NCBI RefSeq assembly: GCF_001425265.1
Contig: NZ_LMEC01000021.1
Span: forward strand, 248,001 to 312,000
From: Massilia sp. Root418
GTDB lineage: Bacteria; Pseudomonadota; Gammaproteobacteria; Burkholderiales; Burkholderiaceae_D
Reading direction: 5' to 3'
Length of the DNA stretch: 64,000 bases
Position 1 is the first letter of the stretch. Each line of letters starts with the position of its first letter. Positions 40,998-58,290 of the stretch are shown in pieces. A program made the translations under genes and the position numbers. A model generated the notes under the pieces. It was not told the origin of the DNA. It worked only from the letters and a program-made list of their open reading frames with translations, and did no database searches.

Positions 40998-41879
40998 TTA
41001 TGTGCTGCGGAGGAGGGCGATTGCGGCGCTGGTGGCGCCGGCGATGATGTCTTCGCGGTATTTGGCGTCCTTGCTGTCGTGCGCGGTGTAGACGGCGATG
41101 ACGATGGGCGCCTGACCGGGCGGCCAGATGACCGCGATGTCGTTGCGCGCGCCGTAGGCGCCGCCGCCGGTCTTGTCGCCAACCGTCCAGCCGGCTGGCG
41201 TGCCGGCACGGATCAGCTTGCCGCCCGTGGTGTTCCCGACCAGCCAGTCCTTCAGCTGCTGGCGCTGCGTCGCGGGCAGCGCGTCGCCCACCACCAGTGC
41301 CTGCAGGCTGCGCATCATGGCCAGCGGCGTGGTGGTGTCGCGCGGGTCGCCGGGAATGGCGCTGTTGAGCTCGGTTTCCCAGCGGTCCAGGCGGAAATCG
41401 GTGTCGCCGATGCTGCGCGCGTAGGCAGTCACGGCTTCCGGGCCGCCCAGCACTTTCATCAGCAGGTTGGCGGCCGGGTTGTCGCTGTATTGCACGGTGG
41501 CCGCGCACAGCTCCGCCACCGTCATGCCTTGGGCGATGTTTTTTTCCGTGATGGGCGCGTGCGGCACCATGTCCTTGCTGGTATAGCTGATGCGCCGCTG
41601 CAGCAGCGCAGGGTCGCTAACGCTGCGGTGCAGGATGGCGCCGGCCAGTACGGCCTTGAAGGTGCTGCACACGGGGAAGCGCTCGCCCGCGCGGTGGCCC
41701 ACCTGCTTGCCGGTCGCCAGGTTGATGGCGGCAATGCCCAGGCGGCCGCCCAGGTCTTTTTCCAGCGAGGCGAAGGCGCTCATGGGGGCGTCGGGCGCGC
41801 CGGGCGCCTCGGCCGCGAAGGCGTCCAGGCTGGCGAAGGGAATCAGGGCGGCGGCGCCCAGGAAGTGTCGGCGTCGCAT
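40998..41879 (-). CDS. Class A beta-lactamase
   Basis: The 293-residue serine beta-lactamase has the active-site STFK (S72-K75, preceded by C71), SDN at 132-134, the omega loop ETELNSAIPGDPRDTTTP with the general base E168, and KTG at 236-238 in DKTGGGAYG. The omega loop and KTGGG resemble the CTX-M/PenA-like branch more than TEM. The N-terminus RRRHFLGAAALIPFASL has a twin-arginine look, so Tat export is possible. The start shares a base with the uraH stop (TGATG), showing translational coupling to a purine gene. Resistance phenotype is not predictable from sequence alone. Confidence 0.95.
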   Translation of the reverse strand: MRRRHFLGAAALIPFASLDAFAAEAPGAPDAPMSAFASLEKDLGGRLGIAAINLATGKQVGHRAGERFPVCSTFKAVLAGAILHRSVSDPALLQRRISYTSKDMVPHAPITEKNIAQGMTVAELCAATVQYSDNPAANLLMKVLGGPEAVTAYARSIGDTDFRLDRWETELNSAIPGDPRDTTTPLAMMRSLQALVVGDALPATQRQQLKDWLVGNTTGGKLIRAGTPAGWTVGDKTGGGAYGARNDIAVIWPPGQAPIVIAVYTAHDSKDAKYREDIIAGATSAAIALLRST

Positions 41880-42232
41880 CAGCTGCCCCGGTAGGTGGAG
41901 TAGGACCATGGCGTCACCACCAGCGGCACGTGGTAGTTCTGCGCCGGGTCGGCAATGCCGAACGCCAGCGTGACCAGGTCGATGAAGCGCGGCGACGGCA
42001 GGTCCACGCCCTGGCCGGCGAAGTAGTCGCCGGCGTTGAACACCAGCTCGTATTGGCCGGCCTTCATGCTGTCGCCTTCCAGCAGCGGCGCGGCGCAGCG
42101 GCCGTCGGCGTTGGTGATGTCCATCTTCAGCAGGACCTTGCCTTCCGGCCGGACTGCAAACAGCGCCACTTTCACGCCCGCGCCGGGCTTGCCGGCCGAG
42201 GTGTCGAGCACGTGCGTACTGAGTTTTCCCAT
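41879..42232 (-). CDS. uraH: 5-hydroxyisourate hydrolase
   Basis: This transthyretin-like enzyme hydrolyses 5-hydroxyisourate, the urate oxidase product, to OHCU. The 117-residue protein has the family hallmarks STHVLDT (H7), GRCAAPLL (R45), NYHVPLVVTPWSYSTY (H101) and the C-terminal tetrapeptide YRGS. I chose ATG 42232, preceded by AGGAAG; the longer frame to 42274 adds no family sequence. It is divergent from puuE and coupled to the beta-lactamase. No urate oxidase or OHCU decarboxylase gene lies in the window. Confidence 0.95.
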   Translation of the reverse strand: MGKLSTHVLDTSAGKPGAGVKVALFAVRPEGKVLLKMDITNADGRCAAPLLEGDSMKAGQYELVFNAGDYFAGQGVDLPSPRFIDLVTLAFGIADPAQNYHVPLVVTPWSYSTYRGS

Positions 42233-42260
42233 GTCGCTTCCTATATCCGTTGAGTGAAGC

Positions 42261-42270
42261 ACGATATCGT
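42261..42270. promoter_or_regulatory. Palindrome ACGATATCGT between uraH and puuE
   Basis: A perfect 10-bp palindrome in the 82-base divergent region. It lies 29 bases from the uraH start and 45 bases from the puuE start, a sensible place for an operator controlling both. The cognate regulator is not in the window. Confidence 0.45.
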
Positions 42271-42314: not shown

Positions 42315-43268
42315 ATGAGCACTTACGACAACTACCCCCGCGACATGATCGGCTACGGCCGCACTCCACCCCATGCGCAATGGCCGGGCGGCGCCCGCGT
42401 GGCGCTGCAGTTCGTTCTCAATTATGAGGAGGGTGCCGAGAACAACGTGCTGCACGGCGATCCGGCCTCCGAAACCTTCCTGTCCGAGATCATAGGCGCT
42501 GCCGCGTTTCCCATGCGCCACCTTAGCATGGAGACCATCTACGAGTACGGCTCACGGGCCGGCTTGTGGCGGTTGCTGCGCATGTTCGAGGAACGCAAGC
42601 TGCCGCTGACCATTTTCGGCGTCTCCATGGCGCTCAAGCGCAACCCGGAAGCGGTGGCCGCCTTCCAGGAGCTGAACCACGAAATCGCCTGCCACGGCCT
42701 GCGCTGGATCTCCTACCAGAACATGGACGAGGCCACCGAGCGCGCCCACATGAAGGAAGCGGTCGAGATCATCAAGGACCTGACCGGCAGCGCGCCGCAG
42801 GGCTGGTACACCGGGCGCGATTCGCCCAACACCCACAAGCTGGTGATGGAGCACGGCGGCTTCCGCTACGACGCCGACCACTACGGCGACGACCTGCCGT
42901 TCTGGCTGCCGGTGGCGCACAAGAACGCAGCGGGGCTGGATGTGGTGAGTCCGCAACTGATCGTGCCCTACACCTTGGACACCAACGACATGCGCTTTGC
43001 CGCCATGCAGGGCTTCAATTCGGGCACCCAGTTCTTCGATTATCTCAAGGACGCCTTCGACACCCTGTACGCCGAGGGCGACCCGAATGGCCTGAACCAG
43101 CCGAAAATGCTGTCCATCGGCCTGCATTGCCGCCTGATCGGCCGTCCCGGCCGCGCCGCCGCCCTGGCGCGCTTCCTGGACTACGTGCAGAGCGTGGACA
43201 AAGTCTGGATCACGCGCCGCATCGATATCGCCGAGCATTGGCACGCGACCCACCCTTATTTAGCCTGA
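42315..43268 (+). CDS. puuE: Allantoinase PuuE (polysaccharide deacetylase type)
   Basis: PuuE is a metal-dependent allantoinase of the polysaccharide deacetylase fold, opening allantoin to allantoate. The 317-residue protein has the family stretches GGARVALQFVLNYEEGAE, EIACHGLRWI and GWYTGRDSPNTHKLV, and the C-terminal SIGLHCRLIGRPGRAAAL. The N-terminal polar segment YDNYPRDMIGYGRTPPHAQWP is also typical. No Shine-Dalgarno sequence is seen. A TATTAT hexamer ends 6 bases before ATG, so a leaderless start is possible. It precedes xdhA in the same direction and shares its upstream region with uraH. Confidence 0.94.
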   Translation: MSTYDNYPRDMIGYGRTPPHAQWPGGARVALQFVLNYEEGAENNVLHGDPASETFLSEIIGAAAFPMRHLSMETIYEYGSRAGLWRLLRMFEERKLPLTIFGVSMALKRNPEAVAAFQELNHEIACHGLRWISYQNMDEATERAHMKEAVEIIKDLTGSAPQGWYTGRDSPNTHKLVMEHGGFRYDADHYGDDLPFWLPVAHKNAAGLDVVSPQLIVPYTLDTNDMRFAAMQGFNSGTQFFDYLKDAFDTLYAEGDPNGLNQPKMLSIGLHCRLIGRPGRAAALARFLDYVQSVDKVWITRRIDIAEHWHATHPYLA

Positions 43269-43353: not shown

Positions 43354-44826
<1,473 letters not shown>

Positions 44827-44837: not shown

Positions 44838-47222
44838 ATGAACCATCCCGGCGCAACGGACATCAAAGCCATGGCGTGGACCGCCGTCGGCCTCGGAAAA
44901 CCGCACGAGTCGGCCGCGCTGCACGTGCTCGGCCAGGCTACCTACACCGACGATATCCCGGAGCTGCGCGGCACCTTGCACGCCGCGCTCGGCCTGTCCT
45001 CCAAGGCGCACGCCAACATCCTCGCGGTGGACCTGGACGCGGTGCGCGCCGCGCCCGGCGTGGCGGCGGTGTACACGGCGAAGGATATCCCCGGCACCAA
45101 CGACTGCGGCCCCATCATCCACGACGATCCCATCCTCGCCGACGGCAAGGTGGAATACGTGGGCCAGCCCATCTTCATCGTGGTGGCGGATACGCACGAC
45201 AACGCCCGCCGCGCCGCGCGCCGCGCCAACGTCACCTACGAAGAGCTGCCGGCCATCCTGACGCCGCAGGCAGCCAAGGCCGCGCAGTCCTACGTGCTGC
45301 CGCCCATGCAGCTGAAGCGCGGGGACTACCAGGCCGCGTTCGAGCAAGCGCCGCGCACCGTGAAGGGCACGCTGTACGTGGGCGGCCAGGAGCAGTTCTA
45401 CCTGGAAGGCCAGATCGCCTATGCCATCCCGAAAGAGCAGAACGGCATGCAGGTGCTGTGTTCCACCCAGCACCCGAGCGAGATGCAGCACGTGGTGGCG
45501 CATGCGCTGGGCGTGCATTCGCATCACATCCAGGTCGAATGCCGCCGCATGGGCGGCGGTTTCGGCGGCAAGGAGTCGCAGTCGGCGCTGTGGTGCGCGG
45601 CGGCCGCCATCGCCGCGAAGAAGACCGGGCGCCCGGTCAAGCTGCGCGCCGACCGCGACGACGACATGCTCGTTACCGGCAAGCGCCATTGCTTCTACTA
45701 TGAATATGAGGTGGGCTACGGCGACGACGGCAGGATCATCGCCGCCAAGGTGGACATGGTGTCGCGCGCAGGCTATTCGGCCGATTTGTCCGGGCCGGTC
45801 GCCACGCGCGCGGTCTGCCACTTCGACAATACCTATTACCTGAGCGACGTGGACATCCGCGCCGCCTGCGGCAAGACCAACACGCAATCCAACACCGCCT
45901 TCCGTGGCTTCGGCGGCCCGCAGGGCGCCATCGCCATCGAATACATCATCGACGAGATCGCGCGCGAACTGGGGCAGGACGCGTACGATATCCGCCGCCT
46001 GAATTTCTACGGCAAGGACGAGCGCAACGTCACCCCTTACGGCCAGGTGATCGTGGACAACGTGATCGCCGAGCTGACGGCGGAACTGGAGCAGAGCAGC
46101 GAATACCGCGCGCGCCGCGCAGCCATTGCCGCGTACAACGCCACCAGTCCGCTGCTGAAGAAAGGGCTGGCGCTCACGCCGCTCAAGTTCGGCATCGCCT
46201 TCAACGTCACACACCTGAACCAGGCCGGCGCGCTGGTGCACGTGTACGTGGACGGCTCGGTGCTGGTCAACCACGGCGGCACGGAGATGGGGCAGGGCAT
46301 CAACACCAAGGTGCTGCAAGTGGTGGCGCATGAACTGGGTCTGGACCTGGAGTACGTGCGCATCACCGCCACCGACACCAGCAAGGTGGCCAACACGTCC
46401 GCCACTGCTGCCTCCACCGGCGCGGACCTGAACGGCAAGGCCGCCCAGGACGCGGCGCGCCAGATCCGCGAGCGCCTGTCCGCCTATGCCGTGAAGCTGT
46501 ACGGCGGCGACGCCGCTGCGGTGCAGTTCTACGACAACCGCATCCACGTCAACGGCCATGCCGTGCCGTTCGCGGAACTGGTGCAGAAGGCATACCTGGC
46601 GCGCGTGCAGCTGTGGTCGGACGGCTACTACGCCACGCCGCACCTGCACTGGGACCCGAAGACCATGAACGGCCATCCCTTCTCCTACTACGCTTACGGC
46701 GCGGCCGTATCGGAAGTGGTGGTGGATACGCTCACCGGCGAATGGAAGCTGCTGCGCGCGGACGCGCTGTACGACGCGGGGCAATCGCTGAACCCGGCCA
46801 TCGATATCGGCCAGGTGGAAGGCGCTTTCATCCAGGGCATGGGCTGGCTCACCACCGAGCAGCTGTGGTGGAACGCGGGCGGCAAGCTGATGACGCATGC
46901 GCCGTCGACCTACAAGATTCCCGGCGTGTCCGACTGCCCGGAAGACTTCCGCGTGCGCCTGTTCGAGAACCGCAACGTGGAAGACAGCATCCACCGCTCC
47001 AAGGCCGTGGGCGAGCCGCCGCTGCTGCTGCCGTTCTCGGTGTTCTTCGCTATCCGCGACGCCATTTCGGCCGTGGGCGGCCACAAGGTCAACCCGCCGC
47101 TGAATGCGCCGGCTACTGCCGAAGAAATCCTCAAGGCCATCGCCGCTGTCGAGGTGGCTGTTGAGGTGGCTGTTGAGGCGGCTGCGAAGCGCGGCGGCGT
47201 ATCGTCCACGGATATGCCATGA
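44838..47222 (+). CDS. xdhB: Xanthine dehydrogenase large subunit XdhB (molybdopterin)
   Basis: The 794-residue subunit holds the molybdenum cofactor and oxidises hypoxanthine and xanthine to urate. Visible are the ald_Xan_dh_C head, GGGFGGKE, FRGFGGPQGA, the GTEMGQGINTKVLQ loop, and the catalytic Glu region VGEPPLLLPFSVFFA. Downstream, the last about 20 residues form an Ala/Glu/Val run (EVAVEVAVEAAAKRGG) encoded by 12-bp repeats (47145-47180), unlike the normal family end. ATG 44838 follows AAAGGAGCCGCC. Its stop overlaps xdhC as ATGA, so translation is coupled. Confidence 0.97.
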   Translation: MNHPGATDIKAMAWTAVGLGKPHESAALHVLGQATYTDDIPELRGTLHAALGLSSKAHANILAVDLDAVRAAPGVAAVYTAKDIPGTNDCGPIIHDDPILADGKVEYVGQPIFIVVADTHDNARRAARRANVTYEELPAILTPQAAKAAQSYVLPPMQLKRGDYQAAFEQAPRTVKGTLYVGGQEQFYLEGQIAYAIPKEQNGMQVLCSTQHPSEMQHVVAHALGVHSHHIQVECRRMGGGFGGKESQSALWCAAAAIAAKKTGRPVKLRADRDDDMLVTGKRHCFYYEYEVGYGDDGRIIAAKVDMVSRAGYSADLSGPVATRAVCHFDNTYYLSDVDIRAACGKTNTQSNTAFRGFGGPQGAIAIEYIIDEIARELGQDAYDIRRLNFYGKDERNVTPYGQVIVDNVIAELTAELEQSSEYRARRAAIAAYNATSPLLKKGLALTPLKFGIAFNVTHLNQAGALVHVYVDGSVLVNHGGTEMGQGINTKVLQVVAHELGLDLEYVRITATDTSKVANTSATAASTGADLNGKAAQDAARQIRERLSAYAVKLYGGDAAAVQFYDNRIHVNGHAVPFAELVQKAYLARVQLWSDGYYATPHLHWDPKTMNGHPFSYYAYGAAVSEVVVDTLTGEWKLLRADALYDAGQSLNPAIDIGQVEGAFIQGMGWLTTEQLWWNAGGKLMTHAPSTYKIPGVSDCPEDFRVRLFENRNVEDSIHRSKAVGEPPLLLPFSVFFAIRDAISAVGGHKVNPPLNAPATAEEILKAIAAVEVAVEVAVEAAAKRGGVSSTDMP

Positions 47223-48307
47223 GCGGCTGGCTGACAGAGCCCTCGGCGCCGTCGGTGCTGATCACGGTGGCGCGCGTGGACGGCTCCGGCCCGCGCGAGG
47301 CCGGCACCAAGATGCTGGTGACGGCGGAGCACGAGTTCGACACCATCGGCGGCGGCCACCTGGAAATGCGCGCCATCGACATCGCGCGCGAGATGCTGTC
47401 CGGCCAGGCGGTGCGCTATGAACGCTTCGCGCTCGGCCCCAGCCTGGGGCAGTGCTGCGGCGGCGTGGTCTACCTGCTGTTCGAGCGCGTCGATACCCGC
47501 CTGGGGGCCGTCATGGCGGCGCTGCGCGAGCGCCGCCGCGAAGACTGCTGGCGCCTGACCGCCGTTGACGGCCCCGCGTGCGTGGCGCTGTTCGACATGC
47601 ACGGACAGCCGTTGTCGGCTGGTCACCCTCCCGCTGCCGCTGCCGGCCCGCTGGCCACGCCTGTGAGCGATCCGCTGTCGGCCCCCGCCTTTGCGCGCGA
47701 CCGTGGCGCCCACCTGATGCAGGACGCCTCCGGCCGCCGCTGGATGGTCGATCCCATCCTGGCGCCGCGCGCGCACCTGACCCTGTTCGGCGCCGGCCAC
47801 GTTGGCGCCGCCATCGTGCGCGCGCTGGCCGAGCTGCCGTGCACCGTCACCTGGGTGGACGAACGCGAGGACATGTTCCCCGCCGATATCCCTGCCAACG
47901 TCACGGTGGAGGCGAGCGAGCTGCCGGAAGCCTGCGTGGCCGAAGCGCCGCCCAACAGCAGTTACCTGGTGCTGACCCACAACCACGCGCTGGACCAGCG
48001 TCTCACCGAAACCATCCTGCAGCGCCAGGACGTGTACTGGTTCGGCCTGATCGGCTCCAAGACCAAGCGCATGCAGTTCGAGCACCGCCTGCAGGCCAAG
48101 GGCATAGACCAGGCCCGCATCGACGCCATGGTGTGCCCGATCGGCATCGCCGGTATCACCAACAAGGCGCCGGCCGTTATCGCCGCCTCCGTGTGCGCCC
48201 AGCTGCTGGGCGTGTGGGAGCAGCAGGACGCCGAACGCATGCCCAAGCCACTCAGCCAGACCGCGACCCTGCTGCGCGCAGCCGGTTCCACGCAATACAA
48301 GATTTAG
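47219..48307 (+). CDS. xdhC: Xanthine dehydrogenase accessory protein XdhC
   Basis: XdhC sulfurates and inserts the molybdenum cofactor into XdhB. The 362-residue protein has an N-terminal domain with GSGPREAGTKMLVT, GGGHLE and a cysteine pair LGQCCGG. A C-terminal Rossmann domain has LTLFGAGHVGAAIVRAL and IGSKTKRMQFEHRL. The gene starts within the xdhB stop and ends 11 bases before guaD. The order xdhABC-guaD is a standard purine operon in betaproteobacteria. Confidence 0.95.
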   Translation: MSGWLTEPSAPSVLITVARVDGSGPREAGTKMLVTAEHEFDTIGGGHLEMRAIDIAREMLSGQAVRYERFALGPSLGQCCGGVVYLLFERVDTRLGAVMAALRERRREDCWRLTAVDGPACVALFDMHGQPLSAGHPPAAAAGPLATPVSDPLSAPAFARDRGAHLMQDASGRRWMVDPILAPRAHLTLFGAGHVGAAIVRALAELPCTVTWVDEREDMFPADIPANVTVEASELPEACVAEAPPNSSYLVLTHNHALDQRLTETILQRQDVYWFGLIGSKTKRMQFEHRLQAKGIDQARIDAMVCPIGIAGITNKAPAVIAASVCAQLLGVWEQQDAERMPKPLSQTATLLRAAGSTQYKI

Positions 48308-48318: not shown

Positions 48319-49623
48319 ATGCAAACGACCCAGGTGCAAGCCTACCGCGCAGGCTTGCTGCACTTTCACGCCGATCCCGCCTTCACGCCGGACGCCCACC
48401 ACTGGCACGAGGATGGCCTGCTGGTGGTGGCGGACGGGAAGGTGCAGGCGGCAGGGGATTACGCCGCGCTGCACGCCACGCTGCCGCCCGGCGCGCAGGT
48501 GCACGACTATCGCGGCAAGGTGATCACGCCCGGCTTCATCGACACCCACGTGCACTATCCGCAGACCGACATGATCGCCTCCCCGGCGCCCGGCCTGCTG
48601 CCCTGGCTGAACACCTACACCTTCCCGACCGAGCGCCAGTTCGAGGATCCGGCGCACGCCGCCGCCACCGCCGAGTTCTTCCTCGACGAGCTGCTGCGTG
48701 TGGGCACTACCACGGCCATGGTGTACTGCACCGTGCATCCGCAATCGGTGGACGCTTTCTTTGAAGCGAGCGCAAAGCGCAACCTGCGCATGGTGGCCGG
48801 CAAGGTGCTGATGGACCGCCATTGCCCCACGTTCCTGCAGGACTGCGCGGAAACCGGCGGCCGAGAAAGCGAGGAGCTGATCAAGCGCTGGCACAATCGC
48901 GGCCGTGCGCAGTACGCCATCACGCCGCGCTTCGCGCCCACCTCCACCGAGGCCCAACTGGGCGTGGCCGGAGAACTGGCGCGCGCCTACCCGGACACTT
49001 ACATCCAGACCCACGTTTCCGAGAACGAGGACGAAGTGAAGTGGGTGCGCGAGCTGTTCCCGCAGGCGCGCAGCTACCTGGACGTGTACGACAGCTACGG
49101 CATGCTGCGGCCGCGCGCCATGTACGGGCACTGCATCTGGCTAGACGAGGGCGACCGCCGCCGCATGGCCGAGACGCAGGCGGCGGCCGCCGTGTGCCCG
49201 ACCTCCAACCTGTTCCTGGGCAGCGGCCTGTTCGACTTCGAACGTGCCGATGAAGCGGGCATGCTGCTGTCGCTGGCGACGGACGTGGGCGCGGGCACTT
49301 CCTTCTCCATGTTGCAAACCATGAACGAAGCCTATAAAGTAGCGCGCTTGAAGGGCAGTTACCTGCCGGCGCTGCGCATGTTCTACCTGGCCACGCTGGG
49401 CGCGGCCCGCAGCATGCAGCTGGAAGGCACGATAGGCAGTTTCGTGGCCGGTGCGGAGGCCGATTTCGTGGTGCTGGACCCGACAGCGACGCCGCTGCTG
49501 GCGCGCCGCACGGGGCATACCGAAAGCCTGGAAGAGCTGCTGTTCGCGTTGGCCTTGCTGGGCGACGACCGCGCTGTGGCCGCGACGTATTCGGCGGGCC
49601 GCGAGGTGCACCGGCGTCCGTAG
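48319..49623 (+). CDS. guaD: Guanine deaminase
   Basis: GuaD deaminates guanine to xanthine, feeding XdhABC. The 434-residue amidohydrolase has the metal-binding PGFIDTHVHYPQTD, the His region THVSENEDEVKWV, GHCIWLDEGD, and the metal Asp in SLATDVGAGTSFSM. VYCTVHPQSVDAFFEAS and KVLMDRHCPTFL are also guaD-typical. I chose ATG 48319, 11 bases after xdhC; the open frame reaches far upstream inside xdhC. Its stop is at the edge of a GGCGGGTTA palindrome pair that separates it from the adenosine deaminase gene. Confidence 0.96.
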   Translation: MQTTQVQAYRAGLLHFHADPAFTPDAHHWHEDGLLVVADGKVQAAGDYAALHATLPPGAQVHDYRGKVITPGFIDTHVHYPQTDMIASPAPGLLPWLNTYTFPTERQFEDPAHAAATAEFFLDELLRVGTTTAMVYCTVHPQSVDAFFEASAKRNLRMVAGKVLMDRHCPTFLQDCAETGGRESEELIKRWHNRGRAQYAITPRFAPTSTEAQLGVAGELARAYPDTYIQTHVSENEDEVKWVRELFPQARSYLDVYDSYGMLRPRAMYGHCIWLDEGDRRRMAETQAAAAVCPTSNLFLGSGLFDFERADEAGMLLSLATDVGAGTSFSMLQTMNEAYKVARLKGSYLPALRMFYLATLGAARSMQLEGTIGSFVAGAEADFVVLDPTATPLLARRTGHTESLEELLFALALLGDDRAVAATYSAGREVHRRP

Positions 49624-49739: not shown

Positions 49740-51257
49740 ATGAACAAAATTTTCCCGAAACTGATGATGGCGCTGGCCGTGGCGGCAGCGTGCAATGCGC
49801 AGGCTCAAAAAGCCGCGCCTGTGGCCGCGAGCGCCAACGAGCAGGCCACCAGCCGCCATTTCGCGTCCCTGGTTTCGGGCGGGCAGCCCAAGTCGGCCGA
49901 ACTGACTTTGTTCTTCACCATGATGCCCAAGGGCGGCGACCTGCATCACCACTATTCCGGCGCCATCTACGCCGAGCAGTTCCTGCACTGGGTGGACAAG
50001 CAGGGCTACTGCGTCCACAAGGGCACCTACCAGATTGAAACCGACGCCGGCAAGCTGGCCATGGAGCGCGCCGCGTCGCCGGCCACCCGCACCTGCATCA
50101 GCGGCGAAGCCGTGATGCTGGACAACGGCATGCTGGCCGAGCTGCTGCAGCGCTGGGGCACCAAGGACTTCTACAACCACAGCGCCCTGCAGACGCCGCC
50201 CGACCGCACCTTCTTCGACACCTTCGGCTACTTCAACCCGGTGGCTTCCACCAACACCGCGGACGGCCTGCGCACGCTGAAGCAGCGCGCCATCAACGAG
50301 AACGTCAGCTACATCGAAACCGTGTTCGAACTGGCGCCGTTCACCGTGAACGCCGATTTCGACAAGGCCGTGCTGGCCCCCGGCCTGGACAGCGCCGCGC
50401 TGAACGCCAGGCTGGAAGCGCTGCTGCCGGTGCTGGACAAGGACGCCGGCTGGACCGGCTGGCTGGAGGCCTACAAGAAGAATGTGGACAGCGCCAGCGC
50501 CGGCATCGACGACGAGCAGTTCACCATGCGCTACCAGCCCTTCGTGCTGCGCTTCCAGTCGCCGTCCCAGGTATTCTCGTCCATGGTGTCGGCCTTCAGG
50601 CTGGCGCGAGAGAACCCCAAGGTGGTGGGCGTGAATATTGTCGGCCAGGAAAGTACCTACGTTTCCATGCGCGACTACAAGCTGCACATGCAGATGTTCA
50701 AGTTCCTGAAAACGAAGTACCCGGAGGTGAAGCTGTCGCTGCACGCGGGCGAGCTGGCGCTGGGCATGGTGCCGCCGGAAGGCCTGCAGTCCCACATCGC
50801 GGACGCCATCAACGTGGCTGGCGCCGGCCGCATCGGCCACGGCATGGACATCGCGCACGAAGCGAACGCGCTGGCCACCATGAAAGCCATGCGCGAGCGC
50901 GGCATCGCGGTGGAAGTGAACCTGACCAGCAATGATTTCATTCTCGGCATCAAGGGCGATGCCCACCCGGTCACCCTGTACCGCAAGTACGGCGTGCCCT
51001 TTGTCATCTCCACCGACGACGCCGGCGTATCGCGTAATAATCTGGCCAACGAGTACACCCTGTTCGCCAGCCGCTACCCGACCTCCTACGCGGAAGTAAA
51101 GAAACTGTCATATGACAGCATCCGCTACTCCTTCCTCTCCGCTGCTGAAAAACAACGCTTGAGCGCCCAGCTGGACACGCGTTTCAAGAAGTTTGAAGCC
51201 GATGTGGCCGCCGGCAGCGCCACCGCGGCAGCCGCCGCTGCGGCCCGCCCGCGCTGA
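49740..51257 (+). CDS. Exported adenosine deaminase (ADGF-like)
   Basis: The 505-residue protein has a signal peptide (FPKLMMALAVAAACNAQAQ) and the adenosine deaminase fold. The metal-binding HxH lies in GDLHHHYSGAI (H69, H71), then SLHAGE, GRIGHGMDIA and the catalytic FVISTDDAGVSRNNL. The long spacer before the metal site resembles secreted ADGF-type enzymes rather than the short cytoplasmic Add. It would turn adenosine into inosine outside the cytoplasm. ATG 49740 follows GAGGGCAGCTG. It ends in an Ala-rich tail (AAAAAARPR). Neighbouring exported nucleotidase and nuclease fit the same pathway. Confidence 0.92.
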   Translation: MNKIFPKLMMALAVAAACNAQAQKAAPVAASANEQATSRHFASLVSGGQPKSAELTLFFTMMPKGGDLHHHYSGAIYAEQFLHWVDKQGYCVHKGTYQIETDAGKLAMERAASPATRTCISGEAVMLDNGMLAELLQRWGTKDFYNHSALQTPPDRTFFDTFGYFNPVASTNTADGLRTLKQRAINENVSYIETVFELAPFTVNADFDKAVLAPGLDSAALNARLEALLPVLDKDAGWTGWLEAYKKNVDSASAGIDDEQFTMRYQPFVLRFQSPSQVFSSMVSAFRLARENPKVVGVNIVGQESTYVSMRDYKLHMQMFKFLKTKYPEVKLSLHAGELALGMVPPEGLQSHIADAINVAGAGRIGHGMDIAHEANALATMKAMRERGIAVEVNLTSNDFILGIKGDAHPVTLYRKYGVPFVISTDDAGVSRNNLANEYTLFASRYPTSYAEVKKLSYDSIRYSFLSAAEKQRLSAQLDTRFKKFEADVAAGSATAAAAAAARPR

Positions 51258-51380: not shown

Positions 51381-51490
51381 TTTCATCCGCTTGACGAAGC
51401 CCTTATAATTCCGCCCATATAGGTCACGCGACCGGCACGTCTACGTCTTCCAACATCTGCTTTTCTCTCGCTTTTTTCCGTATTTATATG

Positions 51491-51557
51491 GTTTTCGTAT
51501 GAATCGCCAAACGAAAACGTATTTGTCATGCATTTTTTACTAATGCATAGTTGGCGA
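51491..51557 (+). promoter_or_regulatory. Structured leader with mutually exclusive stems before the TonB receptor
   Basis: Stem A pairs GTTTTCGT (51491-51498) with ACGAAAAC (51511-51518). Stem B pairs TCGCCAA (51504-51510) with TTGGCGA (51551-51557) and encloses ATGCATT (51528-51534) paired with AATGCAT (51542-51548). The two outer stems interlock, so they form a pseudoknot or exclude one another, as in riboregulators. It lies 150 bases upstream of the ATG. No known riboswitch class was recognised. Confidence 0.4.
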
Positions 51558-51707
51558 TAGCGTTGCTGAAGTTGCAGTCCATTCGTGTCATGAAGCCGTC
51601 ATAAAGATGACATCAGTAGGAAATATTGCCAGGTTAGACTGCTCCGTTTCTTGCAGAGTCTGACTGCAGTTTTAAAGAAAATTCACATAACCCCACGGGA
51701 GTTTTAC

Positions 51708-54092
51708 ATGCAATACGTTAATCAGCCCAAGCTGCGTTTGAGCCTGATCGCTGTGGCTTGCCAGATGGCATGCGCTTCGGCCGCCTTCGCGCAAACCGCG
51801 TCCGAAGTCGCGCCGCAAGTGACCACCGGCAGTGGTACCAACCAGGTCGTCATTACCAGCAAGAAACTCGGCATGGGCCTGATGGTGACGGAAGACGCGC
51901 CAAAAGCACGTTCGACGATCACTGCCGAAGAGCTGGAAAAACAGCGTCCGACCGGTAACGCATATGAAGCGCTGGAAATGCTGCCTGCAGTGAACAGCTA
52001 CAACTACGATGCAACCGGCCTGTTCGGCGGCGGCATGACCCTGCGCGGCTTCAACAGCGACCAGATCGGCGCCACCATCAACGGCGTGCCGGTCAACGAT
52101 TCGGGTTCCTTCTCGGTCTACCCGCAAGAATACGTGGACCAGGAAAACACCTGCTCGCAGTTCGTGACCCAGGGCTCGACCGACGTGGACTCCCCGCAAG
52201 TGGGCGCAACTGGCGGTAACTTCGGCATTAACACCTGCAACCCCGAGAGCAAGCAGCGCCTGCGCTTCATGCAGACCTTCGGTCAGCTGAACATGAAGAA
52301 GACCTTCCTGCGCTATGACAGCGGCCTGTTCCCTGACGGCCGTTCCAAGCTGTTTATCTCCGCCTCGCACGCCGAGACCGACAAATGGAAAGGCAAGGGT
52401 ACCGCCAAGCGCGACCACATCGACGCCGGCTTCAACTACGACTGGGACCGCTTCAACTACATCCACGCCACCGCGCTGTGGAACGATGCTGTCAACAACA
52501 ACATCAACAACCTGACCCTGACCGAACTGCAAACCCAGGGCTACCATGGCGACTTCGCCGATACCTTCAAGGGCCACCTGACCCCGGTCAAGGGCACCCC
52601 GCAAACTGAAACCACCCAGTCGCCGGCCTACTACAAGCTGGGCATCAATCCGTTCAAGAACGCGATCGTGTCGGCCACCGCCAAGTTCCGCCTGAACGAC
52701 AACCTGGACATCAAGATCCTGCCATACCTGTGGTACGGCTTCGGCAACGGCGGCATCCAGCAGCGCGCACAGCGCGAGAACCAGTTCTACAGCACCGCCA
52801 ACGGCACCCGCACGTCCGCCAAGGACCTGAACGGCGACGGCGACACCCTGGACACCATCCTGGTGGCCAACGCGTCCGTGACCAAGACCTACCGTCCTGG
52901 CGTGACCGCGTCCGCCATCTACACCCTGGGCAACCACGAAATCCTGGGCGGCTTCTGGTGGGAGCGCGCACGCCACGAGCAGACCGGCCCGATGCTGGCA
53001 CTGAGCAACGAAGGCGAACGCGAAGACATCTACCTGCAAGACGGCAAGATCACCCGTCCTGACGGCACCTTCGCCAACAGCCGCGACCAGCTGACCATTT
53101 CGACCGCACGCCAGGTGTTCATCCAGGACACCATCAGCATGATGGACGACAAGCTGAAAGTGAACATCGGCGTGCGTACGCCGGACATCAAGCGTGACTT
53201 CACCAACTGGGGCGACGAGAACAACACCGTGCGCCAGTACAAGATGGTGCGCAAGTATGACGACGTGCTGCCGCAGCTGGGCGCGCGCTACCGCATCACC
53301 AACGACGACCAGGTCTTCATGTCGGTCGCCAAGAACATGAAAGCGCCGCCTAACTTCGTGTTCGGCAACGTCGGCACCAACGTGATCGTCACCAACGGCG
53401 TGGGCAACTTCGTCGGCGAAGTGAAGCCTGAAGTGTCGTGGAACACCGACGTGGGCTACCGCCACCAGGATTCCAAGTACATCGCCACCGTGACCGTGTT
53501 CGCAGTGGACTTCAAGGACCGCCAGGCAACCGCCTTCGATCCAGTGACCCAGGTGAGCAGCTACACCAACGTGGGCCGCGTGAAGAGCCATGGCCTGGAA
53601 GTTGAACTGGGCAATACGCCGATCAACGGCTGGGCGTTCTACGGTTCGATCGGCTACAACAAGTCGGAGATCCAGGACAATATGCGCGTTGGCGCCAATG
53701 CCTTCCTGCCAACCGCAGGCAAGGAAATGATCAACGCGCCCAAGCTGAAGACCAGCGTGTCGGCCGAGTACCAGGACGGTCCGTTCTGGGCCCGCCTGAA
53801 AGCGCGCCAGACCGGCAAGCAGCAGGCATCGTTCGTCAACGACGAAACCGCGCCAGGCTACACCACCTTCGGCCTGGACGGCGGCTACACCTTCGCCAAC
53901 TTCGGTATCTTCAAGCGTCCGAAGCTGACCTTCAACGTGAGCAACATCACCAACAAGGAATACCGCAACCCGTCGTCGGTGTCGATCACCAACGTCAAGC
54001 CGGTACCGGGCGTGACCACCACCACCGGCACCCAGCGCTACTACCTGGGCGCGCCACGCTTCTTCTCGGCCACCCTGTCGATCGATATCTAA
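51708..54092 (+). CDS. TonB-dependent outer-membrane receptor
   Basis: The 794-residue receptor has a signal peptide (PKLRLSLIAVACQMACASAAFA), a plug domain (EELEKQRPTGNAYEALEMLPA onward, then GMTLRGFNSDQIGATINGVPV), a 22-strand barrel and the outer-membrane end FFSATLSIDI. It resembles receptors for small organic compounds, without a clear siderophore signature. It sits between an exported adenosine deaminase and an exported nucleotidase, so import of nucleosides, nucleobases or nucleotides is the best guess. I chose ATG 51708 because it starts the signal peptide and follows GGGAG. A terminator follows directly. Confidence 0.93.
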   Translation: MQYVNQPKLRLSLIAVACQMACASAAFAQTASEVAPQVTTGSGTNQVVITSKKLGMGLMVTEDAPKARSTITAEELEKQRPTGNAYEALEMLPAVNSYNYDATGLFGGGMTLRGFNSDQIGATINGVPVNDSGSFSVYPQEYVDQENTCSQFVTQGSTDVDSPQVGATGGNFGINTCNPESKQRLRFMQTFGQLNMKKTFLRYDSGLFPDGRSKLFISASHAETDKWKGKGTAKRDHIDAGFNYDWDRFNYIHATALWNDAVNNNINNLTLTELQTQGYHGDFADTFKGHLTPVKGTPQTETTQSPAYYKLGINPFKNAIVSATAKFRLNDNLDIKILPYLWYGFGNGGIQQRAQRENQFYSTANGTRTSAKDLNGDGDTLDTILVANASVTKTYRPGVTASAIYTLGNHEILGGFWWERARHEQTGPMLALSNEGEREDIYLQDGKITRPDGTFANSRDQLTISTARQVFIQDTISMMDDKLKVNIGVRTPDIKRDFTNWGDENNTVRQYKMVRKYDDVLPQLGARYRITNDDQVFMSVAKNMKAPPNFVFGNVGTNVIVTNGVGNFVGEVKPEVSWNTDVGYRHQDSKYIATVTVFAVDFKDRQATAFDPVTQVSSYTNVGRVKSHGLEVELGNTPINGWAFYGSIGYNKSEIQDNMRVGANAFLPTAGKEMINAPKLKTSVSAEYQDGPFWARLKARQTGKQQASFVNDETAPGYTTFGLDGGYTFANFGIFKRPKLTFNVSNITNKEYRNPSSVSITNVKPVPGVTTTTGTQRYYLGAPRFFSATLSIDI

Positions 54093-54116: not shown

Positions 54117-54145
54117 AAAGCGGACCTGCGGGTCCGCTTTTTTTT
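54117..54145 (+). terminator. Intrinsic terminator of the TonB receptor gene
   Basis: AAAGCGGACC (54117-54126) pairs with GGTCCGCTTT (54131-54140) over the loop TGCG and runs into a T-tract to 54145. Strong intrinsic terminator; the nucleotidase operon downstream thus needs its own promoter. Confidence 0.95.
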
Positions 54146-54244: not shown

Positions 54245-55945
54245 ATGACCACATTTTTCAAGCTCCGCGCCGGCGCGCTGGCAATGGCCGCCGCGCTGCT
54301 GGCCGGCTGCGCCAGCCAGCGTCCCGCCACCGTGGTGGACATCAACATCGCCACCCTGAACGACTTCCATGGCTACATCGAAGCGAGCAAATTCACCTAC
54401 ACCGACGCGCGCGGCAATGAACGCAGCCAGCTGGCCGGCGGCATCGACACCATCGCCGCCGCGCTGCAGGCCTGGCGCAAGGAAGACCCGCAGCTGCTGC
54501 TGGTGGGCGCGGGCGACCTGATCGGCGCCAGCCCGGCCATCTCCTCCATGTGGGCCGACGAGACCACCCTGGGCGCGCTCAACCTGCTGCGCATGAACGC
54601 CACCTCGGTGGGCAACCATGAATTCGATGCCGGCCGCGCCGAGCTGCTGCGCCAGCAGAAGGGCGGCTGCGTGTCGCCGCGGCCGGACAAGGCCTGCAAA
54701 TTCGAGCCGGTCTACCCCGGCGCCAAATTCCAGTACCTGGCCGCCAACGTGGTGGACATGGCCACCGGCAAGCCCTTCCTGCCGGCCTATCACGTGGAGG
54801 AGGTACGCGGCGTGAAGGTGGGCTTCATCGGCGCCGTGCTCAAGGACACGGCGCAGGTGGTGCTGGCCTCCGGCATCGCCGGCCTGCAGTTCAACGACGA
54901 GGCGCAAGCGATCAACCGCGTGCTGCCGGAGCTGCGCGCGCAGGGCGTGAACGTGTTCGTGGTGCTGATTCACCAGGGCGGCCGCACCAAGGATGCGCTG
55001 GACCAGCCGGACTGCCCCAACCTGCAAGGCGAAATCGTGGACGTGGTGAAGCGCCTCGACCCGGCCGTGCGCGTGGTGATCAGCGGCCATTCGCACAAGG
55101 GCTATCTGTGCCGCGTGGACGGGCGCCTGGTGACGCAGGCTGAAACGGCGGGCCACGTCATGTCGCGCATCACCCTGAGCGTGGACACGGCCAGCAACAG
55201 CGTGGTGGGCGAGCGCGCGCGCAACGTGGTGATGGAGCAGGACCGCTACCCGGCCGATCCGGCCATGGTGGCCTACATGGACACCGTGCGCAAGCGCAGC
55301 GCCGAAGTGCTGGGCAAGCCGGTGGCGCGCCTGGCCGTGGCCAGAGTGGCGCGCGCCACGGGCGACGACAGCAGCGAATCGGCCATCGGCAACCTGGTGG
55401 CGGACTCCATGCTGGCGGCCGCCAAGCCGTATGGCGCGCAGATCGCCTTCATGAACCGCGGCGGCCTGCGCAACGACCTGCTGTCGGGCGCCGGCAACGT
55501 GGCCGCGCTGTCGCACCTGCACGCCGTGCTGCCGTTCGGGAATACCCTGGACGTGATGAACCTCACCGGCGCGCAGTTGCGCGCGCTGCTCGAAGAGCAG
55601 TGGCGCGAAGGCCGTAATATTTCGCGCGGCCTGCTGCAAGTGTCCGAGGGCTTCAGCTATCAATGGGATGGGAAGAAGCCGGAAGGCCAGCGCGTGGTGC
55701 CGGGCAGCGTGCTGCTGCACGGCGTGCCCATCGAGGACGGCGCCAGCTACCGCGTGGTGACCAACCACTTCCTGGCCGAGGGCGGCGATTACTACCCGAC
55801 CTTCGCGCGCGGCACCGGCCGCGCCCCCACCACCATACGCGACATCGACGCGCTGGCCGGCTACCTGGTCCAGCGCGACCGCGACGGCAAGCCTGCCGGC
55901 GCGGCCCGCCAGGCCGGCCGCGTGCAGCGCCTGCAATCACCATGA
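54245..55945 (+). CDS. Lipoprotein 5'-nucleotidase / UshA-like phosphoesterase
   Basis: The 566-residue protein has a lipobox LLAGC (C22) and two UshA-type domains. The N-terminal metallophosphoesterase has NDFHGYIEASK, GAGDLIGASPAIS, GNHEFDAG and SGHSHKGYLC. The C-terminal 5'-nucleotidase domain has AIGNLVADSML, NRGGLRNDL and LPFGNTLDVMNLTGAQ. It should dephosphorylate nucleotides to nucleosides in the periplasm or on the outer membrane. An unusual KGGCVSPRPDKACKFEPVY loop with two Cys is inserted after GNHEFD. Next in line, after 17 bases, is the PLD gene. Confidence 0.93.
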   Translation: MTTFFKLRAGALAMAAALLAGCASQRPATVVDINIATLNDFHGYIEASKFTYTDARGNERSQLAGGIDTIAAALQAWRKEDPQLLLVGAGDLIGASPAISSMWADETTLGALNLLRMNATSVGNHEFDAGRAELLRQQKGGCVSPRPDKACKFEPVYPGAKFQYLAANVVDMATGKPFLPAYHVEEVRGVKVGFIGAVLKDTAQVVLASGIAGLQFNDEAQAINRVLPELRAQGVNVFVVLIHQGGRTKDALDQPDCPNLQGEIVDVVKRLDPAVRVVISGHSHKGYLCRVDGRLVTQAETAGHVMSRITLSVDTASNSVVGERARNVVMEQDRYPADPAMVAYMDTVRKRSAEVLGKPVARLAVARVARATGDDSSESAIGNLVADSMLAAAKPYGAQIAFMNRGGLRNDLLSGAGNVAALSHLHAVLPFGNTLDVMNLTGAQLRALLEEQWREGRNISRGLLQVSEGFSYQWDGKKPEGQRVVPGSVLLHGVPIEDGASYRVVTNHFLAEGGDYYPTFARGTGRAPTTIRDIDALAGYLVQRDRDGKPAGAARQAGRVQRLQSP

Positions 55946-55962
55946 CAACCAAGGAGTCCACC

Positions 55963-57180
55963 ATGCGCAAACTCTTCCTCTCAGCACTGCTGGCAGCGGG
56001 CTTCGGCAGCGCCCGCGCCGATTTCAGCATCCCCGGCTACGAGCTGGTGCTGACCACGCCGGTGGAAACCACGCTGGCCAACCCGGACCTGCGCGAAGCG
56101 GCGGCGGTGTGGGCGGAGCTGTTCGACAACGCCAGGAAGGACATCGCCATCGGCCAGTTCTACGCCGTGGTGCGCGAGGGCAGCGCCTTCGAGAAGGTGT
56201 TCGAGCGGCTGGAGGCGGCGGGCAAGCGCGGCGTGAAGATCCGCTTCCTGCTCGACAAGAAGGGCATCGGCCTGTCCGAAGCGCCCACCATCGAGCGCCT
56301 GAAGGCCATTCCCAACCTGGAACTGCGCATACTTGATTACAACCAGCTGACCGGCAACGGCATCATCCACGCCAAGTACCTGGTGGTGGACCACCAGGTG
56401 GCGTACATGGGCAGCCAGAACTTCGACTGGCGCTCGTTCGCGCACATCCACGAAACCGGCCTGCGCATCACGGACGGCAAGGTGGTCAAGCAGATCCAGG
56501 CCATCTTCGACCAGGACTGGAACGCCCAGTCGCGCCTGGCGCACGGCCAGCGCGTGGCGGAAATCGGCACGGCGGTGTCGAGCGCGAACTACGCGCCGGA
56601 CGCCTTCCTGATGGCCAGTCCCTACGCCTACAATCCGCCCGGCGTGGCCGATTCCGAGCGCGGCCTGCCGGCCCTGCTGGAGGAGGCGCAAAGCGAAGTG
56701 CGGGTGCAGCTGCTGGACTACGCGCCGCTCAGCTACGGGCCGAAGGGTACGCGTCCCTACTATCCGGTGGTGGACAACGCGGTGCGCGCCGCCGCGCAGC
56801 GCGGCGTGAAGATCAAGCTGATGGTATCGAACTGGAACACCGAGGCGCCCGCCATCGCCTACCTGAAAAGCCTGGCGATGCTGCCCAACGTGGAAGTGCG
56901 CGTGGTCACATTGCCGAAGGCATCGGACGGTTTCATCCCGTTCGCGCGCGTCATCCACAGCAAGACCATGAGCATCGACGGCAAGGTGGCCTGGGTGGGC
57001 ACCAGCAACTGGGCCGGCGGCTACTTCGACCTGTCGCGCAACCTGGAAGTGGTGATGCGCAATGCGCAGATGGCACAGCGCCTGGCCGCGCTGCACCAGC
57101 AGCTGTGGGACTCGTCGTACGCCGCGCCGCTGGACGTGAACAAGAACTATCCGAAACCTAGCAAAGGGAAAGAAGAATAA
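55963..57180 (+). CDS. Secreted phospholipase D-family (HKD) protein
   Basis: The 405-residue protein has a signal peptide (RKLFLSALLAAGFGSARA) and two complete HKD motifs: HAKYLVVDHQ (H136, K138, D143) and HSKTMSIDGK (H332, K334, D339). Each is followed by the GSQNFD or GTSNWAGG stretch. Two HKD motifs support phosphodiester cleavage. The family includes lipases and nucleases (PLD3/4-like architecture). With a 5'-nucleotidase upstream and an S1/P1 nuclease downstream, nucleic acid or nucleotide cleavage is favoured over phospholipid. The stop directly abuts the next ATG. Translation of all three genes appears coupled. Confidence 0.9.
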   Translation: MRKLFLSALLAAGFGSARADFSIPGYELVLTTPVETTLANPDLREAAAVWAELFDNARKDIAIGQFYAVVREGSAFEKVFERLEAAGKRGVKIRFLLDKKGIGLSEAPTIERLKAIPNLELRILDYNQLTGNGIIHAKYLVVDHQVAYMGSQNFDWRSFAHIHETGLRITDGKVVKQIQAIFDQDWNAQSRLAHGQRVAEIGTAVSSANYAPDAFLMASPYAYNPPGVADSERGLPALLEEAQSEVRVQLLDYAPLSYGPKGTRPYYPVVDNAVRAAAQRGVKIKLMVSNWNTEAPAIAYLKSLAMLPNVEVRVVTLPKASDGFIPFARVIHSKTMSIDGKVAWVGTSNWAGGYFDLSRNLEVVMRNAQMAQRLAALHQQLWDSSYAAPLDVNKNYPKPSKGKEE

Positions 57181-58290
57181 ATGAAGAAGCTCGCATGTGT
57201 GCTGGCGCTGGGCGCCGCCTTTGTATCGACCAACGCGCTGGCCTGGGGTAACGATGGCCACCGCATCGTCGGTGCCATCGCCGACCAGCTGATCAAGGGC
57301 AGCTACGCCGAGAAGCAGGTGCGCGCGCTGCTCCTGCCGGGCGAGAGCCTGGAGAAGGTCTCCACCTGGATGGACTGCGTGAAGGGCACGTATTGCGGCC
57401 CGCAGACGCCGGAGATGACCGACTACACGGCCGCCAACCCCAAGCACACGGAATACCATTACACCGACGTGCCCTTCCAGCTCGATGAGTACCACGACCA
57501 CGGCGTGGGCACCGAGGAGCACGACATCGTGCAGTCGCTGCGCCAGGCCATCTGGGTCCTGCAGGGCAAGGACGGCGCAGCCGTCAATCCGCACAAGTTC
57601 ACCAGGCGCCAGGCCCTGCTGCTGCTGGCCCACCTGGCAGGCGACGTGCACCAGCCGCTGCACGTGGGGTCGGCCTTTATCAGCAAGGATGGCGTGTTCG
57701 TGGTGCCGCTCAAGCAGGAGCAGATCGACGGCGTCAACATCTTCAATCCGCAGGGCGGCAACAACATGCTGCTGGACGACGCGCGCATTGCGGCCCTGGG
57801 CGGCGCGCTGATTCCTGCGCCGGCGCCGAAGGAAAGCGAGGGCGCCAAGCCCGCCGCCGCCGCCGGTGTTCCGGCGGCCGCCGACGCCAAGCCGGCCGTG
57901 AAGACCAAGCCCTTCCACTCCTACTGGGACACCACCGTGGTGGACTACGCCATGCGCCGCGTGAGCGCGCGCACGCCGGAGCAGTTCGCGCAGATCGCCA
58001 TCGCCGGCAAGCCGGCCGTGGCGCTCAACACCGGCGACCCCGCCGAGTGGCCGTACCAGTGGGCCAACGATGCGCTGGCGGTGGCCAAGGCTGCGCACGC
58101 AGACGTGACCGTGGGCCCGGCCGGCAAGCAGACCAGCCGAAACGGCACCGTCTACACCGTGTGGCAGCTGAACGTGCCGGACAACTATCCGGTGCCGTCG
58201 TCGGCCATCGCCAAGGAGCAGCTGGTCAAGGGCGGCTACCACCTGGCGTCGCTGCTGCAGGCCATCTGGCCCGAGCCGGCGGCAAAGTAA
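57181..58290 (+). CDS. Secreted S1/P1 nuclease
   Basis: S1/P1 nucleases are trinuclear zinc enzymes that cut single-stranded DNA and RNA and remove 3' phosphates. The 369-residue protein has a signal peptide ending AFVSTNALA, so the mature chain starts with W22, the N-terminal Trp that binds zinc in this family (WGNDGHRIVG, H27). Other parts are LPGESLEKVSTWMD, HYTDVPF and AHLAGDVHQPLHVG, and a distal HSYWDTTVVD. A Pro/Ala-rich stretch near residues 213-240 is inserted before the last zinc part. It abuts the PLD gene without a gap. Confidence 0.93.
   Translation: MKKLACVLALGAAFVSTNALAWGNDGHRIVGAIADQLIKGSYAEKQVRALLLPGESLEKVSTWMDCVKGTYCGPQTPEMTDYTAANPKHTEYHYTDVPFQLDEYHDHGVGTEEHDIVQSLRQAIWVLQGKDGAAVNPHKFTRRQALLLLAHLAGDVHQPLHVGSAFISKDGVFVVPLKQEQIDGVNIFNPQGGNNMLLDDARIAALGGALIPAPAPKESEGAKPAAAAGVPAAADAKPAVKTKPFHSYWDTTVVDYAMRRVSARTPEQFAQIAIAGKPAVALNTGDPAEWPYQWANDALAVAKAAHADVTVGPAGKQTSRNGTVYTVWQLNVPDNYPVPSSAIAKEQLVKGGYHLASLLQAIWPEPAAK

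Follow-up and report, generated by a model that had tools for sequence, protein, structure and literature searches.

A conserved candidate locus for nucleic-acid foraging, with an exchangeable TonB-dependent receptor, in the Duganella/Pseudoduganella/Massilia group

Introduction

Loci that couple uptake through the outer membrane to the breakdown of a particular nutrient are known for the TonB/Sus type: in the Bacteroides rus locus for ribose and nucleosides or the CUT loci of Xanthomonas, a receptor stands beside exported hydrolases and catabolic genes, with regulation linked to the substrate. Enteric bacteria have Tsx, but how fragments of nucleic acid cross the outer membrane as food in Gram-negative bacteria other than enterics and naturally competent cells is, to our knowledge, poorly known. 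Here we describe a gene block at positions 41879-58290 of a 64,000-nucleotide stretch of Massilia sp. Root418 (contig NZ_LMEC01000021.1, positions 248,001 to 312,000; the whole stretch is called the window), in which exported enzymes, a TonB-dependent receptor and enzymes of purine catabolism are encoded side by side. We consider it probable that bacteria of the Duganella/Pseudoduganella/Massilia group, and some of their relatives, use this conserved block to forage for nucleic acid, through the steps proposed below and with a dual promoter before its receptor gene. For further study it provides candidates for the receptor, its regulator and two promoters, along with 14 or more natural changes of receptor type.

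The block is like the TonB/Sus-type loci in that an outer-membrane receptor adjoins exported hydrolases and catabolic genes, but its substrate would be nucleic acid, it contains no SusD partner, and two barely similar receptor types occupy one slot. With the xdh/ureide purine loci of proteobacteria (xdhABC, guaD, uraH, puuE, puuD, uraD), of which the same genome has a second example, it has the cytoplasmic enzymes in common; here, however, these are joined to an exported nuclease, nucleotidase and deaminase and to a TonB receptor, while urate oxidase, UraD and a permease are missing. Bacteria using extracellular DNA as a nutrient have been reported (PMC8289736, PMC9273947), Pseudomonas aeruginosa PASS4 among them (PMC6555301). 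They are alike in living on nucleic acid, but among the matches listed for them there is no dedicated TonB receptor, and the TonB genes mentioned for PASS4 are assigned to iron and sulfate acquisition (PMC6555301). No title or abstract among the matches listed in our literature search dealt with such a locus or with nucleosides or nucleic acid as the cargo of a TonB receptor in proteobacteria, subscription journals lying mostly outside its coverage. The new content of this analysis is the link to a regulon, the PHO-like site and the exchange of receptors.

Gene content and conservation of the block

All genes named in the original prediction were located, in the order uraH (minus strand), puuE, xdhA, xdhB, xdhC, guaD, ada, receptor, 5'-nucleotidase, PLD (phospholipase D) protein and S1/P1 nuclease, and its gene set and motifs were confirmed by Pfam and NCBIfam profiles and by motif location:

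41879..42232, minus strand: uraH, 5-hydroxyisourate hydrolase (PF00576; TIGR02962 above cut-off; ATG taken as start)
42315..43268, plus strand: puuE, allantoinase (TIGR03212, 519 bits, above cut-off)
43354..44826, plus strand: xdhA, FAD/2Fe-2S subunit of xanthine dehydrogenase (PF00941, PF03450, PF01799)
44838..47222, plus strand: xdhB, molybdopterin subunit (PF20256, PF02738, PF01315; motifs)
47219..48307, plus strand: xdhC, molybdenum cofactor insertion chaperone (PF13478, PF02625)
48319..49623, plus strand: guaD, guanine deaminase (TIGR02967, 589 bits, above cut-off)
49740..51257, plus strand: ada, exported deaminase of the ADA (adenosine deaminase) superfamily, kin of secreted ADGF/ADA2/AMP deaminases (PF00962, PDB relatives, motifs)
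51708..54092, plus strand: TonB-dependent receptor, type A, 794 aa (PF07715, Plug; PF00593, barrel)
54117..54145, plus strand: intrinsic terminator-like hairpin 3' of the receptor gene, AAAGCGGACC-TGCG-GGTCCGCTTTTTTTT (by eye)
54245..55945, plus strand: lipoprotein 5'-nucleotidase (PF00149, PF02872; lipobox LLAGC; metallophosphatase motifs)
55942..57180, plus strand: exported PLD-superfamily protein with two HKD motifs (nearest to 7E0M, next to the PLD3/PLD4 5'-3' exonucleases)
57181..58290, plus strand: exported S1/P1 nuclease (PF02265 above cut-off; zinc-ligand motifs)

The purine-to-urate enzymes recognised by profile are thus xanthine dehydrogenase, guanine deaminase, hydroxyisourate hydrolase and allantoinase. 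A script located the motif patterns in nine enzymes, and those sought were present in all nine (in XdhB, for example, GGGFGGKES, TAFRGFGG and KAVGEPP); the one exception was in XdhA, where a tentative pattern for a C-terminal cysteine found no match. "Exported" here means across the inner membrane, as predicted from signal peptides, and the compartments assigned below are predictions of this kind. Because terminator-like hairpins (by eye) follow both ada and the receptor gene, the receptor and the 5'-nucleotidase-PLD-S1/P1 genes look like separate transcription units.

The linkage is widely kept. The exported deaminase is encoded in all 74 genomes of the genus sample, from every one of which the block was retrieved and mapped, and its gene adjoins guaD in all 74; xdhABC, guaD, ada, the receptor, the 5'-nucleotidase and the S1/P1 nuclease occur together in 66. 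Gene by gene, the receptor is kept in its slot in 74 genomes beside the exported hydrolases (5'-nucleotidase in 72, PLD protein in 72, S1/P1 nuclease in 70), and the catabolic genes are present in 73 (guaD, at more than half length), 69 (xdhB), 68 (xdhC), 67 (xdhA), 65 (puuE) and 64 (uraH), some misses being due to contig ends, as in locus L061 on a 5.5-kb contig. The full set was also found in 20 of the 23 loci of the family sample, which we picked from ADA-positive genomes of other genera. This recurrence of the gene set is more than chance, and the conservation of gene order across the Massilia group, proposed as a check with the original prediction, is borne out. In six loci (L069, L074, L075, L077, L099 and L101) the xdh genes are wholly or partly gone from the block and guaD-ada-receptor is kept; an xdhB-like gene at 78% remains in L074 and L077.

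Across the family, the deaminase was detected (E<=1e-100) in 189 of the 392 genomes searched, spread over 11 of the 44 genera, the window's genus counted, and the loci with this deaminase belong to Pseudoduganella, Duganella, Rugamonas, Massilia and one Janthinobacterium metagenome-assembled genome. None of 21 loci around homologues outside the family (13 taken from the order and 8 from the genome collection) holds the block. One such locus, L124 (deaminase at 35%), has guaD (51%) directly after an exported-type deaminase gene, with partial matches to xdhA and the S1/P1 nuclease in the same 20 kb, and may represent an earlier and less tight stage of this linkage.

A promoter element shared with nucleoside operons

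Four features of the leader of the receptor gene bear on its control:

51482..51528, plus strand: 47-bp element with an ATTTAT-type dyad, a 7-bp spacer, and AAA..G.ATTTGTCA ending in a -35-like TTGTCA (51523-51528)
51546..51551, plus strand: extended -10-like (TG)CATAGT of promoter P1, 17 bp past TTGTCA
51585..51613, plus strand: overlapping PHO-box-like sites, GTGTCATGAAGCCGTCAT running on to TGACAT (score 21.6 of 25.2, the window's highest)
51635..51640, plus strand: TAGACT, candidate -10 hexamer for P2, a possible promoter of the PHO type (by eye, 10 nt past a further 11-bp repeat)

The element, whose fixed positions read ATTTAT-N8-C.T.T.AAT-N5-A-N3-AAA..G.ATTTGTCA, is found in all 93 receptor leaders, whichever receptor type follows. 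Its 25 fixed positions are matched without mismatch in 39 leaders, with one in 23, two in 21, three in 9 and four in 1; the minimum among 279 Markov-shuffled leaders was eight. The best spacer between the -35 and -10 hexamers is 17 in 69 and 18 in 22 of the 93 leaders (spacers of 14-20 were tried, with ties going to the one nearest 17). Genus-wide, allowing up to 3 mismatches, all 74 genomes contain the element, with 220 matches in total and none in the 74 genomes for a reversed-pattern control; 49 genomes have three copies, 12 have four, 12 have two and 1 has one.

The places of these copies were listed for about two thirds of the genomes, and those whose surroundings were read connect the receptor with nucleoside metabolism. 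In the window's own genome the copies outside the window lie at C21:346980 and C21:327375 (1 mismatch each) and at C26:486373 (3 mismatches). The first stands between a divergent psuK-psuG-lysR group and an operon for xanthosine/purine nucleoside phosphorylase (PNP), deoB, deoC, aldehyde dehydrogenase, deoA and cdd; XapA/PNP, DeoB, DeoC, DeoA and Cdd of this genome each score above a cut-off, the PsuK call is based on PfkB accompanied by a helix-turn-helix, together with a pseudouridine-kinase match that stays below its cut-off, and the PsuG call on the Indigoidine_A family. A psuK-like gene and PNP flank the element in 13 of the 13 genomes where this was read. The second copy stands between a Bmp/PnrA-like ATP-binding cassette (ABC) importer operon and a second TonB-dependent receptor gene in all three genomes read; in relatives, these regulon genes were recognised by their N-termini and not each scanned. 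The Bmp/PnrA-like substrate-binding protein of the own genome is above its Pfam cut-off, and because its only NCBIfam match at E<=1e-20 is to a putative vitamin-B6 transporter family, far below the cut-off (93 of 400 bits), a nucleoside ligand for this protein is itself presumptive. Since the other copies flank the deo/PNP and Bmp ABC operons, the block receptor, judged by its promoter, would belong with nucleoside uptake and breakdown, in agreement with the nucleic-acid or nucleoside role that had been predicted for it. The second receptor (L264:10560-12815), divergent from the Bmp operon and with the same element in between, is only weakly similar to the block receptor, and a fourth, weaker copy precedes a gene encoding an exported protein of 760 aa, for which a weak match to InhA-like MAM was obtained (L266:5374-7758, G000:C26, G000 being the window's genome).

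With its T-N11-A form and a distance of about 30 bp to the -35-like hexamer downstream, the dyad would be a LysR-type box at the usual position of such an activator, which is some 65 bp before the start; a LysR gene stands beside psuG in all four loci long enough to show it.

A receptor induced by nucleosides could still import something else, for example a vitamin, or a metal complex on which the zinc nuclease or molybdoenzyme depends. TonB-dependent receptors without a known ligand are often metal or cofactor receptors, the type A receptor found no relative at E<=0.001 in a PDB sequence search, and the vitamin-B6 match of the Bmp protein points in the same direction. Nevertheless, the promoter element is held in common with the deo/PNP operon and the Bmp-type importer, and we judge such a different cargo quite unlikely.

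A PHO-box-like site in the receptor leader

The PHO-box-like site is likewise concentrated before the receptor gene. When both strands of each locus (about 13-24 kb) were scored against a PHO-box consensus, the best match was located in the receptor leader in 68 of 92 cases, and 51 leader sites reach a score of at least 20, as against 28 in the remaining 3.66 million strand-bases; of these 28, 12 lie inside ada and 7 between ada and the receptor gene. For 50 of the 92 leaders, a TAnnnT hexamer starts 10 nt past the best box, neither more nor less; for the remaining 42, which include that of the window, the script found none at 6-14 nt. Elsewhere in the window, sites of at least 18.5 occur at 8170, 51094 and 60114 and, on the minus strand, at 43265 (18.9), beside the puuE-xdhA gap. 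The receptor is thus likely to be under both nucleoside and phosphate control, the latter presumably through PhoB, which would fit nucleic acid as a source of nitrogen, carbon and phosphorus.

The same site also suggests another explanation, in which the block mainly scavenges phosphate from cell debris (nucleotides, and lipids if the PLD protein were a phospholipase), the receptor carrying a phosphorylated compound and purine catabolism being a mere neighbour. The nucleotidase, nuclease and PLD protein all release or expose phosphate, 7E0M is named a phospholipase, and elsewhere in the genome (L233:2763-10505, G000:C1) the gene of an exported phytase follows that of a different TonB receptor, with an NCS2 permease gene two genes on. 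However, the nucleoside-regulon element is also present in all 93 leaders, the 260 bp upstream of the 5'-nucleotidase gene contain no PHO-like site of at least 20 in any of 91 loci, and the authors of the 7E0M structure themselves bring up nuclease activity (PMC8004604). We regard phosphate scavenging as the main function as unlikely, though worth keeping in view.

Two receptor types in one slot

Among the 74 genomes, the slot between ada and the nucleotidase gene is never empty: it holds a type A receptor in 26 and a type B receptor in 48. Type A is the window's form, with 794 aa and the Plug and TonB_dep_Rec domains, while type B has about 1140 aa and, in the three scanned, CarboxypepD_reg and OMP_b-brl_4 domains with a weak Plug or TonB_dep_Rec match. 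When profiles of the two were compared, the alignment was limited to 72 columns of the plug, with a probability of 5%. The receptor label needs 15 changes on a tree inferred from five other block genes of 93 loci, gain and loss being indistinguishable in this count; 14 of them are forced by well-supported branches, and the mean for shuffled labels is 25. G005, whose block genes are 86-98% identical to those of the nearby window genome, carries type B.

Such slot refilling bears on another account of the block, namely plain synteny, whereby neighbours without a joint function are inherited together in a young family. The full block is indeed confined to the family in this sampling, with L124 as a partial case. 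Yet the receptor was replaced and not lost while the promoter elements stayed, and the PLD gene was gained or lost at one fixed position, which makes bare inheritance of neighbours very improbable in our view.

Exchange also seems to occur within types. In the 29 type A genomes, receptor distances have a Spearman correlation of 0.10 with those of the other genes, compared with 0.86-0.97 for ten other block genes. In the 64 type B genomes the receptor value of 0.48 falls within the range of the other genes (0.44-0.79), so that exchange within type B is unsupported by this measure, though single pairs show it. Eight receptor pairs, mostly those with the highest receptor-to-flank ratio, were profiled in 50-residue windows. 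For the four pairs of type A, identity per window is 84-98% within residues 1-150 (signal, plug) and mostly 44-82% in the barrel. The four pairs of type B begin with N-terminal windows of 74-100% identity and drop to 42-74% in the middle. In five of the eight the last window is again 100% identical. Flanking DNA is mostly 93-99% identical on both sides in the two pairs profiled for it (L053/L057 and L071/L072), with leader identity dipping to 85-88% in one of them. The barrel looks as though it has been exchanged as a cassette, and phage or bacteriocin pressure may drive this, the alternative being a change of ligand.

We view the block as a nutrient-utilisation locus with a rapidly exchanged receptor. 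The fuller proposal is that proteobacteria import nucleic-acid fragments through the outer membrane in a TonB-dependent manner under nucleoside and phosphate-starvation control, by an importer swapped as a cassette, with two barely similar types using one promoter and slot and, within a type, new barrels on a plug that is kept, probably because phages or bacteriocins select for it; this we advance tentatively, inclining slightly to doubt. A parallel is HpuB of Neisseria, for which recombination and strong variation of surface regions in a TonB-dependent receptor are described (PMC3783016). In our case, by comparison, the promoter is kept and what changes is either the barrel or the receptor type as a whole, and a cause in host immunity is not obvious.

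The structure model of the type A receptor is poor (mean predicted local distance difference test score, pLDDT, 57.4). One genome, G027, has a type A receptor outside the block (L052:11983-14310), preceded by a weak copy of the promoter element (15.4 bits), and a type B receptor inside it.

Exported enzymes

The deaminase was predicted to be an exported adenosine deaminase. A signal peptide (by eye) and the HxH, HAGE, GHG and DD motifs support the export and the superfamily, but the protein scores below every NCBIfam adenosine deaminase cut-off: 75.5 bits against at least 216.55, this being the cut-off of the cytoplasmic Add family TIGR01430, and 75.2 of 315 bits for the ADGF subfamily TIGR01431. 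Its solved relatives in the PDB include an ADGF chimera, CECR1/ADA2, a snail AMP deaminase and ordinary adenosine deaminases. Because it has these relatives and misses the TIGR01431 cut-off, we call it ADGF-like and do not file it as an ADGF member; on the same grounds adenosine is its likely substrate, with AMP also possible.

For the 5'-nucleotidase, the top PDB match is 3ivd ("Nucleotidase"), and many CD73 chains are among the matches. The PLD protein has two HxK(x)4D motifs; its nearest solved relative is 7E0M, the PLD of Serratia plymuthica AS9 (E 5e-151), followed by the PLD3/PLD4 5'-3' exonucleases and a viral nicking-joining enzyme. With 7E0M and PLD3/PLD4 it has both the two HKD motifs and full-length similarity in common. 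The 7E0M paper describes nuclease-like pocket features and raises hydrolysis of nucleic acid by the bacterial form as an open question (PMC8004604); the genomic context described here argues that PLDs of this type are nucleases. The S1/P1 nuclease matches PF02265 above the cut-off, and its signal peptide ends in ...ALA|W (cleavage site by eye), so that the mature protein would begin with the zinc-binding tryptophan; the zinc-ligand motifs are present.

Proposed route and its completeness

Based on these assignments, we propose the following route, in the order that seems most plausible. The exported S1/P1 nuclease and the PLD3-like protein would cut nucleic acid, the lipoprotein nucleotidase would remove phosphate, and the exported deaminase would convert adenosine (or AMP) to inosine (or IMP). 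Nucleic-acid fragments or nucleosides would then cross the outer membrane via the TonB-dependent receptor, transcribed from a nucleoside-responsive promoter whose activator is most likely the LysR protein encoded beside psuG and the deo operon, while the second, PHO-box-type promoter would serve in phosphate starvation. The Bmp-type ABC importer and the purine nucleoside phosphorylase of the same regulon may take in and split the nucleosides, after which GuaD and XdhABC would yield urate for PuuD (encoded elsewhere), UraH, UraD (elsewhere) and PuuE.

The original prediction read the block as a complete plan, which it is not: nucleoside phosphorylase, inner-membrane import, urate oxidase and OHCU (2-oxo-4-hydroxy-4-carboxy-5-ureidoimidazoline) decarboxylase are encoded elsewhere according to whole-genome family searches. 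PNP and the Bmp-type importer belong to the element regulon outside the block. Urate oxidase, OHCU decarboxylase and permease genes, none of which is in the block, were placed elsewhere in the genome, as two PuuD, two OHCU decarboxylases and three NCS2 permeases. The second purine locus (L230, G000:C26:117000-136999) contains guaD2, uraH2, an aromatic amino-acid lyase gene, puuD, a LysR gene, an NCS2 permease gene and xdhA2, with the OHCU decarboxylase (uraD) fused to an M20 peptidase domain. The earlier interpretation is therefore partly supported, being right in direction and incomplete as a pathway, with a receptor ligand that we infer.

Several observations weigh against the foraging hypothesis and should be set against the evidence above. 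The prediction that the genes act as one system gains support from the conserved linkage, but a single regulatory unit is unsupported, since the 47-bp element has its sole site in the window, and the PHO-like site its strongest, in the receptor leader; with no element in the other window promoters and no PHO-like site before the nucleotidase gene, co-regulation of the catabolic and hydrolytic genes with the receptor is unsupported. For 24 of the 92 leaders the locus contains a better-scoring PHO-like site elsewhere, and for one of them 177 such sites. The PLD gene is present in 6 and absent from 17 of the 23 family-sample loci, and the block lacks xdhA in six genomes besides the truncated L061, four of these six lacking xdhB too. 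Homology was also tried as a guide to the receptor ligand and gave none: of the 369 genomes searched in the class, a type A profile picked out the own genome alone (E<=1e-60) and a type B profile 8 (E<=1e-100), with misses possible since only two candidates per genome were scored (a separate receptor search scored at most 13 candidates). Seven of the eight type B relatives have no block gene nearby by tblastn, and the eighth, L225, has a 5'-nucleotidase-like gene at 23%; by gene calling, read by eye, the neighbours in L220-L223 look like housekeeping, purE/purK and pilus genes.

Control of the purine genes and neighbouring genes

Control of xdh and puuE by the receptor's element was considered and is rejected by the single site in the window. 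Conserved features of a different kind were seen by eye in the promoters of these genes, so that two control systems probably meet in one locus. The divergent uraH-puuE promoter (42233-42314) has an inverted pair like ATCATATAC...ATATATGAT in many of the relatives compared, and the puuE-xdhA leader (43269-43353) has a GTGTTAATCT...GGGATAA..CCGAGGC-like stretch. A riboswitch in the xdh leader was also considered; the block has no Rfam match at the gathering score, the two weak ones having E values of 0.09 and 0.2, and an Rfam scan of seven further loci, six from the own genome, yielded two tRNAs only.

Convergent to the block is the gene of an exported protein without a Pfam or NCBIfam match (58292-59242, minus strand). 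At the other end, a class A beta-lactamase gene of a PEN-like group (40998-41879, minus strand) adjoins uraH, the ends overlapping by one base; it occupies this position in G044 and G005 as well and was not seen in the other mapped loci, many of which end near uraH. Further upstream, at 30024-32988 on the minus strand, lie T2SSF and T2SSE genes, which are PilC/PilB-like or belong to type II secretion.

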